Shown piece after piece: positions 588 to 13,489 of a DNA stretch of 24,792 nucleotides. The notes beneath the pieces are model-generated. The model made no database searches, was not told where the DNA came from, and worked only from the letters and a program-made list of their open reading frames with translations. Position 1 is the stretch's first letter. Every line of letters starts with the position of its first letter. Source of the DNA: a virus; the IMG/VR virus record IMGVR_UViG_3300045253_000056, positions 1 through 24,792 of that record. One strand, written 5' to 3'. The position numbers were made by a program, and so were the translations under genes.

Positions 588-1366
588 GCATCATCGAGGA
601 CAGGCTCGTCTACCTCGAGCCCTTGGTTCTGGAATTAGGCGGCCATGAACCGCCAAACAACGGGCTCGTCCATGCCTGCGTGATGGAGGCCGTCGCTTAC
701 ATCGCCGGTGAGCCTTGGTCAGATAAAACCGAGTGTGCGTCGCCCGTCATCGGTGCGTTCCTGCGTACCTGGAACGACTCGCTTTCGGACGACGACCGTC
801 AGATGTTGAAGCCGCTGATCCCGCGGCTCGTCGGAACGAAGGCGTCTAAGCGCGCCGAGGAGAAGCGCGCCTGGATGGCGACGGATTGGCTTGCTCGTGA
901 GTGTGCGCCAGCGTTCCTGCGCCTTGCGGGTCTGACCGAGCACGCCGAGGCGTTGGAATCGCTCGCTGCGCTTACGACGGACGGCAGAACAGCGAAGGCA
1001 CAACAGACCCTAGAGGCCGCAAGGTCGGCCGCATGGTCGGCCGCAAGGTCGGCCGCAGAGTCGGCCGCATGGTCGGCCGCAAGGTCGGCCGCAGAGTCGG
1101 CCGCAGAGTCGGCCGCAGAGTCGGCCGCAAGGTCGGCCGCAGAGTCGGCCGCAAGGTCGGCCGCAGAGTCGGCCGCAAGGTCGGCCGCAAGGTCGGCCGC
1201 AAGGTCGGCCGCATGGTCGGCCGCATGGTCGGCCGCAAGGTCGGCCGCAGAGTCGGCCGCAAGGTCGGCCGCATGGTCGGCCGCATGGTCGGCCCTTGAA
1301 CCGACAGTCAAGCAGCTCCAGGCATCGGCCTTGCTTCTCGTCGAGCGAATGATCGAGGTGAAGTGA
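584..1366 (+). CDS. conserved phage protein with C-terminal (Ala-x-Ser-Ala)n repeat
   Basis: The 260-residue product has two parts. Residues 1-140 form an ordinary globular-looking domain with a segment rich in Trp, Pro and Asp (ASPVIGAFLRTWNDSLSDDD) followed by LKPLIPRLVGTK. I recall this pattern from uncharacterised phage and bacterial proteins, function unknown. Residues about 146-237 are a pure repeat of four residues, Ala-x-Ser-Ala, where x is only Arg, Glu or Trp. A short tail of about 23 residues follows. The repeat should be largely alpha-helical. GTG start at 584 overlaps the previous stop. The similarity to Ala-rich phage proteins is from memory and a profile search would settle it. 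Confidence 0.8.
   Translation: MSIIEDRLVYLEPLVLELGGHEPPNNGLVHACVMEAVAYIAGEPWSDKTECASPVIGAFLRTWNDSLSDDDRQMLKPLIPRLVGTKASKRAEEKRAWMATDWLARECAPAFLRLAGLTEHAEALESLAALTTDGRTAKAQQTLEAARSAAWSAARSAAESAAWSAARSAAESAAESAAESAARSAAESAARSAAESAARSAARSAARSAAWSAAWSAARSAAESAARSAAWSAAWSALEPTVKQLQASALLLVERMIEVK
1019..1294 (+). repeat. 23 tandem copies of a 12-bp unit, in-frame
   Basis: The unit is GCA-NNN-TCG-GCC, where NNN is only AGG, TGG or GAG. Twenty-three contiguous units fit exactly. Read as amino acids the variable position runs R W R E W R E E E R E R E R R R W W R E R W W. Every other base of every unit is identical, with no synonymous change. Because the unit length is a multiple of three, all six reading frames stay open across it, which creates long spurious ORFs. 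Confidence 0.97.
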
Positions 1367-12133: not shown

Positions 12134-13489
12134 ATGCCGACCAACCTACCGCTCGACGGCTACATCCGCGTCTCTCGAGTCGCTGGCCGCTCGGGCGAGT
12201 CGTTCATCTCGCCGGACGTGCAGCGCGAGACGATCGCGCGCCTGGCGGCGATCCACGGCCTCGAGGTCGGCGAGATCGTCGAGGAGCTGGACACGTCAGG
12301 CAAGATACCGATCGACCGCCGCGAGCTCGGGCGTCTCGTCCGCAAAGCCGAGGCTGGTGAGTCAGGCGGCCTGCTCGTCTGGAAGGTCAGCCGGTTCAGC
12401 CGCAGCCTGCTCGACGGCGTGACCGTCGCTGAGCGGGTGCGGGACGCCGGCGGCCGCATCATCGGCGAGGATCTCGACTCGAGCGCCCCGATGGGGCGTG
12501 CCATCCTCGGCTTCCTGCTTGGCTGGGCGGAGGAAGAGCTCGACGCTCGCCGCATCGGCTGGCGGACGGCGCAGGAGCGCGCGGCGGCGCGCGGCGCCTA
12601 CATCGGCCGGACGCCCGTCGGCTATGTGCGCGGCGAGAACCAGCGCCTCGAGCCTGATCCTGTCGCCGGTCCCGCGATCACCGCGCTCTTCACGATGCGT
12701 GCCTCCGGCTCGACGCTGGCCGAGTGCGCCGCCGAGCTGGCGCGCGTCACCGGCAAGGAATGGAGCCGCGCAGCCGTGAGCAAGCTCTTTCACAACCCCG
12801 CCTACCTCGGCCGCATCGCCATCGGCGACATCTACCAGGACGACACGCACGAGGCGCTGACCGACGAACGGACGTGGACGCTGGCGCAGCGCACCGGGCG
12901 CAGGCAGCCGCGCGACGGCAGCCTGGCGGCCCAGGGCGTCCTGGCGGGCTTCATCCGCTGCGCCGGCTGCGGCTTCGTGTGCAGCGTCACCGCGAGCGGG
13001 TCGAAGGAGAAGCGCGTCGCGTCGTACAGCTGCGCCGGGCGGCGCGTCGCGGGCGTCTGCCCAGCGCCTGCGTCGGCGGCGGTCTACAAGGTCGACGGGC
13101 TCGTGCTGCCGCGCCTCGAGGCGTATAAGGCGAGCCACGAGCGGACGTTCAGCGACTACCTGGCCGCCGTCGATCTCTCTGCGGCCGCCTACGAGGGCGC
13201 CGTCCAAGAGCTCGACGCCTTCCTCGAGGCCGCACTCGTCTCCGAGCTCGGAAGGGAGCGCTACGCGCGCGAGGTTGCGCGGCGACGCGAGGCCGTCGAG
13301 GCCGCGCGCGCCATCTACGAGGCGGACCATGTTCGCGGCTCGGCGCTTCTGGGCACTGACGAGACGACCGGCCTCGAGCACGACCGCGCTGTCGCCCGGA
13401 CGCTGCTCGAGAGCGTGACGCTGAGCAAGTCGACGCAGGGGCGGTGGCAGCCGATCGAGGAGCGCGTCGATCTTGTGTGGCGGGCTTGA
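12134..13489 (+). CDS. int: large serine recombinase (phage integrase)
   Basis: The 451-residue protein begins with the resolvase catalytic domain: GYIRVSR with nucleophile Ser14, then DTSGK, LLVWKVSRFSR and the E-helix segment AILGFLLGWAEEELDARRIGW. The recombinase domain follows (about residues 150-260, RTPVGYVRG, NPAYLGR). A zinc ribbon has Cys276, Cys279, Cys300 and Cys309. A helical coiled-coil region is at about 330-420. This is the layout of serine integrases such as Bxb1 and TP901-1, at the short end of their length range. It would integrate the phage into the host chromosome without accessory factors, and excise it with a directionality factor not identified here. Its TGA lies in the -35 box of promoter P2. 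Confidence 0.95.
   Translation: MPTNLPLDGYIRVSRVAGRSGESFISPDVQRETIARLAAIHGLEVGEIVEELDTSGKIPIDRRELGRLVRKAEAGESGGLLVWKVSRFSRSLLDGVTVAERVRDAGGRIIGEDLDSSAPMGRAILGFLLGWAEEELDARRIGWRTAQERAAARGAYIGRTPVGYVRGENQRLEPDPVAGPAITALFTMRASGSTLAECAAELARVTGKEWSRAAVSKLFHNPAYLGRIAIGDIYQDDTHEALTDERTWTLAQRTGRRQPRDGSLAAQGVLAGFIRCAGCGFVCSVTASGSKEKRVASYSCAGRRVAGVCPAPASAAVYKVDGLVLPRLEAYKASHERTFSDYLAAVDLSAAAYEGAVQELDAFLEAALVSELGRERYAREVARRREAVEAARAIYEADHVRGSALLGTDETTGLEHDRAVARTLLESVTLSKSTQGRWQPIEERVDLVWRA

Follow-up and report, generated by a model that had tools for sequence, protein, structure and literature searches.

A putative coding minisatellite for a variable-length helical arm in a class of phage proteins

The virus record analysed here, a stretch of 24,792 bases taken at its full length and referred to as the window, contains one locus at which a 12-base unit is repeated in tandem with variation at a single codon. 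The questions raised by this locus are what kind of protein such a perfect repeat encodes, how the repeat is kept uniform and what the protein might gain from it.

The array and its gene in the window

Cut into 12-mers, positions 1019-1294 yield 23 units of the form GCA-x-TCG-GCC, namely GCAAGGTCGGCC ten times, GCAGAGTCGGCC seven times and GCATGGTCGGCC six times, with AGG (Arg) as x codon in 10 units, GAG (Glu) in 7 and TGG (Trp) in 6. Outside the x codon one nine-base string is kept throughout with zero substitutions, synonymous ones included. According to Tandem Repeats Finder the window has no other array, this one being placed at 1015-1294 with a period of 12, 23.3 copies, 0% indels and a score of 420. 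The 23 repeats with three codons at x given in the preliminary description are thus exact.

The array is located on the plus strand in an open reading frame at 584-1366, which starts with GTG, encodes a protein of 260 amino acids and is used in the same frame in relatives; in this frame the array is read as Ser-Ala-Ala-x. The protein is composed of a conserved head (residues 1 to about 143, positions 584-1012), the array (23 x 12 bp, Ala-x-Ser-Ala in the register of the 12-mer count, predicted to make up most of the two helices described below) and a closing helix (residues 238-260, LEPTVKQLQASALLLVERMIEVK, positions 1295-1363). Head and closing helix are both evident from alignments; invariant residues of the head include H21, C32, E35, D47, C51, N64, D65, D101 and W102, and the closing helix is kept in relatives with a different array. 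A comparison with Pfam gave no family up to E 1, and the PADLOC defence models gave no match up to E 0.01. The protein matches PHROG 3416 (function unknown) with an E of 5.4e-15, residues 1-214 aligning to 1-210 of 248. This score may come partly from the array, because proteins with other heads match PHROG 3416 too.

Directly after the array gene, at 1363-1929, a short beta-clamp-like protein of 188 amino acids is encoded, with a weak Pfam match to DNA_pol3_beta_2 (E 1.3e-4, below the cut-off of that family) and a match to PHROG 947, processivity factor. A PD-(D/E)XK exonuclease, a primase-polymerase and a family A DNA polymerase follow further downstream. Since a large serine recombinase (PF00239, PF07508) is found at 12134-13489, the phage is probably temperate. 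The neighbourhood of the array gene differs between close relatives, and L369, L370 and L371 match the window at DNA level in the array gene alone. Among the neighbours of related genes in other phages, 11 of the 20 tested match PHROG families; the functions assigned are exonuclease, RecT or Erf annealing protein, integrase, primase/helicase, replication initiation, SbcC and methyltransferase.

The structure of the window protein was modelled by AlphaFold2 with 20 aligned sequences. Head and closing helix reach pLDDT values mostly above 90 (95-96 for the closing helix), and the array is modelled as two helices, 133-192 and 199-257, whose least confident stretch is the tip (pLDDT 53-58). The array is predicted to form an antiparallel helical hairpin, a reading based on the secondary structure, on the shortness of the loop and on the high confidence reached at both ends. 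The helical nature of the array proposed in the preliminary description agrees with this model, but the single helix with x along one slowly turning face is replaced by two helices packed as a hairpin. Modelling of a protein with the same kind of array on an Imm5_like head gave the same plan, with helices 110-157 and 167-233 at lower confidence and parts below 50. In this model, the tolerance of any whole number of units would be accounted for by a hairpin of period-4 helices. A four-residue unit with three Ser/Ala positions corresponds neither to a heptad coiled coil nor to a single alpha-helix domain. A PDB structure search with the window model gave no match at E <= 0.001, and a PDB sequence search gave no relative up to E 1; the best VIA-align Z of 6.4 over 71 residues may reflect a mere common helical arrangement. 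Low-E matches in a viral structure library are all unnamed or uncharacterised phage proteins.

Unit swap and turnover among relatives

With the window protein as query, 18 viral loci were matched. In the closest of them, L004 and L005, the head is 80% identical and the closing helix is kept, but the array unit is [Asp/Ala]-Ala-Ala-[Trp/Arg/Gly] with x = NGG. Between the window and L369, which is the same contig as L004, DNA identity is 79.6% for 657-983 and 79.3% for 1280-1366; the array that separates these two stretches is replaced. A head-only alignment, chosen independently of x, retained 80 of the 322 relatives found; by a simple rule 60 of them carry [D/A]AAx arrays, 5 SAAx arrays and 15 others, many of the latter being alanine-rich or cut off. 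In a head tree of 89 rows, which is built on few columns and has a bootstrap that has not settled, there are 11 changes of the SAAx label, six or more of them across well-supported branches, and the window stands among three D/A-type relatives (support 99/80). Such a unit swap between close relatives goes beyond the preliminary description.

Further head relatives (L423, L440, L424, L432, L382 and L471) possess other alanine-rich arrays with Tyr/Asp/Asn, Gly/Trp/Glu or Val/Asp, some of which are not of period four. In a sample of the class Actinomycetes a head match was found in 59 of 394 genomes. Five of the 20 loci listed were looked at: L449 and L453 have arrays, L454 leaves its contig in alanine-rich sequence, and L458 and L462 are chromosomal head relatives without an array. 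The latter two, as well as the Streptomyces plasmid pFRL5 (L472:3004-3543), encode the first half of the head (ACVMEYVSVLAGEPWSD...) and no array. These half-head proteins of bacteria may represent the host's counterpart to the phage head.

Differences in the number of units were found between genomes that are otherwise nearly the same. L188 has upstream DNA identical to that of L250, L262 and L269 and an array differing by one unit; L162 and L163 differ by two units, again with identical upstream DNA; and L411 and L417 differ by 108 bp between flanks of 99.2-99.9% identity. Two copies in one Speluncibacter genome, 98.3% identical in their upstream DNA, contain 17 and 22 SAAx units in a different order. 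A second head type ('EAIPVGAD') occurs in two groups of Xanthomonas phages, XapPhi1-6 on the one hand and KPhi1, BsXeu269p/3 and phiXaf18 on the other. From one group to the other, heads are 87% identical and arrays unlike in sequence and length; members of a group have arrays that are identical or almost identical. With gp79 of mycobacteriophage Bobby as query, 157 records were obtained (148 Mycobacterium and 9 Gordonia phages), 15 of which were compared for their arrays. Llama and Ochi17 are identical at all 3,267 aligned bases save for one array gap of 144 bp, exactly 12 units. Mutaforma13 and Avani, with heads 96.1% identical, differ by 192 bp or 16 units, and Superphikiman and Courthouse have the same array. 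The variation of length and charge pattern between isolates that had been considered possible for the array is therefore seen in relatives, cultured phages among them, and may apply to the window as well.

All of these changes (12, 24, 108, 144 and 192 bp) are multiples of three; the frame switching of a phase-variable contingency locus is not seen. In Ardmore gp46 (L485:1501-2151) the reading frame is lost inside the array, and the usual C terminus is encoded further on in a different frame. This break is due to a different change, not to the number of units; either it is a natural disruption and the phage can do without the complete protein, or the record contains an error.

The order of x was compared with expectation in 66 arrays with uninterrupted runs of at least 8 units, and repeated words in 43 arrays with at least 12. 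Identical neighbouring units show no excess (z 0.14), whereas repeated words of x are in excess (pairs z 7.2, triplets z 6.0), a combination that points to duplication of blocks. Slippage of single units as the sole mode of growth is disfavoured because identical neighbours are not in excess, although single-unit changes occur, as in L188. For the window, the order of x is indistinguishable from a shuffle.

Arrays of this kind defeat assembly. The array gene extends past the contig end in 21 of the 80 head relatives, whereas in all 80 loci more than 400 bp precede the matched head (nearest L409, 421 bp). The records of XapPhi1 and XapPhi2 (L362, L363) are titled complete, yet end inside the array gene; L022 (MT835534) also ends within it. 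A repeat produced by collapse or chimera during assembly would be in line with the gene stopping at so many contig ends and in two Xanthomonas phage records titled complete. However, arrays of the same type are present in the genomes of cultured phages and named isolates, where the flanks are unbroken; they recur in many independent contigs, and near-identical contigs agree at most array positions, so that an artefact is hardly credible. As arrays break short-read assemblies, the copy number of 23 may be inexact, though the array is real, and array lengths are under-reported in metagenomes.

Residue choice at x, carrier heads and possible roles

In total 415 SAA arrays of at least five units were collected. 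A mixed array was defined by at least two of the three classes aromatic, acidic and basic, with 70% of x within them, a choice that makes the result on the alphabet partly circular. By this rule 185 arrays passed, 168 of them distinct, and 159 remained after nine antisense or unrelated ones had been dropped by hand. A single nine-base constant string is used within 113 of the 159 arrays, and 35 different strings occur overall; with at least three Arg, 100 of 107 arrays use only one Arg codon. The recent expansion or homogenisation proposed before is borne out by this uniformity inside arrays and diversity among them. The DNA repeat itself might be the functional element, as a recombination or binding site with the protein incidental, and perfect repetition inside arrays together with rapid turnover would suit it. 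Against this, codon flavours alter x yet keep its chemistry and the flanking protein is conserved, which leaves such a reading very improbable; a function at the DNA level was rejected in view of the 35 synonymous strings encoding the same residues.

G-ending x in the 159 arrays comprise Trp (625), Glu (619) and Arg (607), followed by Gly (38), Lys (24) and Ala (15). C-ending x are mainly Tyr, Arg and Asp, and T-ending x mainly Asp, Tyr, Ala and Arg. All three classes are present in 125 of the 159 arrays, and 34 are without one class. The scans differed by the ending of x, the viral and bacterial ones being G-ending and the others separate, so that third-base counts are not frequencies. By pattern, 9 A-ending, 88 C/T-ending and, in viral contigs, at least 119 G-ending stretches were found, numbers which are not strict rates as the pattern widths differ and many of the 88 are other satellites. 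The near-absence of A-ending arrays is expected if an aromatic residue is needed. A-ending codons dominate at x in two arrays, L245, where Tyr is present, and L154, in whose minus-strand frame the unit is [Ser/Trp]-Ala-Ala-[Glu/Lys], with the aromatic residue shifted to the Ser position. The simple reading of these sequences is that selection would maintain the choice of aromatic, acidic and basic side chains at x, within an array that is homogenised and inherits its third base. A charge balance per array was considered and rejected, as the variance is 18.2 against about 9.7 expected with a mean difference near zero; net charge varies more than independent draws predict.

This alphabet, which is a further addition to the preliminary description, bears on the main rival to a contact-making arm, a passive spacer. 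The hairpin would then serve the head as a stalk or stabiliser, with a length that drifts by repeat instability, and x would need only be soluble and compatible with a helix (i to i+4 salt bridges, some aromatics). Salt bridges in helices join residues spaced by four, precisely the distance between successive x, and the random-looking order, the freely varying length and the occurrence of the arm on different heads all fit. However, about 30% aromatic x (mean 0.29 in 66 arrays) exceeds what solubility requires, a change of the third base leaves an aromatic residue in place (Tyr for Trp), and L154 has Trp at its Ser position, so that a passive spacer appears rather unlikely. Alternatively, the composition of aromatic, Arg and acidic residues, and not their order, might make the protein assemble with itself into a condensate or scaffold produced by the phage. 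Contacts between aromatic residues and Arg are typical of stickers, and the nearly equal totals of Trp, Glu and Arg in G-ending arrays and the little order agree with this, but the array is predicted to be helical, not disordered, and such self-assembly seems distinctly improbable.

Judged from their sequences, SAAx arrays resembling that of the window are carried by at least three kinds of heads with no detected homology, Imm5_like included, another point not contained in the preliminary description, which was partly supported overall and largely right on evolution. Grouping of 145 heads gave 86 of the window type merged with 'EAIPVGAD', 44 of the Imm5_like type, 4 of a third kind and 11 singletons. 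Common ancestry of the window and 'EAIPVGAD' heads is not supported, their merging being due to BLAST chaining (profile comparison probability 0.1%); the comparison of the window head with the Imm5_like group likewise gave a probability of 0.1% and homology is unsupported. Among the proteins tried, L078 alone passed the cut-off of Imm5_like (PF21805; 51.6 bits, cut-off 25), with L100 and L061 below it and no match for the window protein. A phage collection searched with the Imm5_like-type piece gave no match. A five-unit G-ending pattern was matched by 76 stretches in the genomes of bacterial and archaeal species; real arrays among these include those of Brevibacterium (L334) and of the Speluncibacter genome mentioned above. 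SAAx arrays were also seen in archaeal bins, L349 (Nitrososphaeraceae archaeon MAG) and L326 (Methanoperedens MAG); these contigs could be archaeal viruses or binning errors.

Taken together, the array protein is best regarded as a phage accessory protein, often encoded near early DNA-metabolism genes, with an arm that would make adjustable contacts. The array would be a coding minisatellite for this arm, in which two antiparallel alanine-rich helices leave the conserved head and return via the conserved closing helix. Unequal recombination or misannealing would add or remove blocks of whole 12-bp units in frame, a period-4 hairpin could fold at any unit number, and selection would allow only aromatic, acidic or basic side chains at x and Ser/Ala elsewhere, hardly fixing the order. 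The array, its turnover, its alphabet and its occurrence among differing neighbour genes are observed, and the hairpin is a prediction. The arm may thus be a quickly adjustable multivalent contact surface for a changing partner, which we infer to be most likely a factor of the host or of a rival element; the binding surface suggested in the preliminary description is in this sense plausible. This putative contact role is favoured, at a probability somewhat short of even. It is supported by whole-unit changes between near-identical genomes, the swap of units between conserved flanks, the alphabet kept across codon flavours, the hairpin predicted on two heads, the block duplication, the DNA-metabolism genes among the neighbours and the gene-limited DNA match of L369-L371. 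Against it stand the lack of a visible ordered code (the random-looking order in the window, the charge variance), the 34 arrays short of a class, the partly circular selection of arrays, the low confidence at the tip, the frame break in Ardmore and the negative PADLOC comparison. A bolder version, which seems unlikely, is a portable and evolvable recognition module: a putative hairpin with a three-class alphabet on a Ser-Ala-Ala frame, grafted onto unrelated heads and rewritten by recombination faster than the genome, each array setting a contact with host or rival.

What appeared as one repeat thus belongs to a recurrent class of phage proteins with conserved heads, in which an arm is rebuilt by whole units between near-identical phages. 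The frozen third base together with the maintained aromatic, acidic and basic choice suggests selection on side-chain chemistry inside a minisatellite. Cultured examples are the mycobacteriophages Che8, Llama and Ochi17 on M. smegmatis mc2 155, and since Llama and Ochi17 differ solely by 12 array units in the 3.4 kb compared, an effect of array length is directly testable.

Comparison with known systems

A search of the open-licence literature, including repeat strings such as SAAWSAA, found no relevant paper on these arrays. The closest known proteins are those of PHROG 3416 and mycobacteriophage products annotated as 'hypothetical protein', such as Che8 gp57, Llama gp59, Ochi17 gp57, Avani gp62 and Bobby gp79. 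The window protein matches the PHROG 3416 profile and has an alanine-rich tandem array followed by a closing helix. The mycobacteriophage proteins have a related head, at the corresponding position an array that is SAAx or comparably rich in alanine, and a closing helix; unit numbers differ between isolates. Their heads are, however, only distantly similar (Bobby 32.9% over 69 residues, E 0.02), their closing region differs, and Gly and Lys are frequent at x in addition to Trp and Glu.

The Imm5_like (PF21805) array proteins, for example L078, resemble the window protein in unit, alphabet and predicted hairpin but differ in the head, for which profile comparison gave no homology. The passages of PMC3482391 in which 'Imm5' occurs mostly concern Imm50-Imm59.

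Single alpha-helix domains and Alacoil-type antiparallel coiled coils (PMC5347031, PMC3037368) have in common with the array long helices, Ala-rich packing and helix-spaced charges; the array differs from them by its strict period of four in place of heptads, the aromatic third class and the fast turnover of units.

As to the generation of diversity, coding minisatellites and contingency loci consist of short tandem repeats, and diversity-generating retroelements use a reverse transcriptase, a template repeat and adenine-directed change, whole-unit gain or loss not being known as their pattern. Like coding minisatellites and contingency loci, the array consists of tandem units that are homogenised and vary in number from one genome to another that is nearly identical. 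It differs from these systems in that the 12-bp unit holds the frame, so that there is no on/off switch, in that x is confined to three chemical classes, and in its recurrence on different heads.
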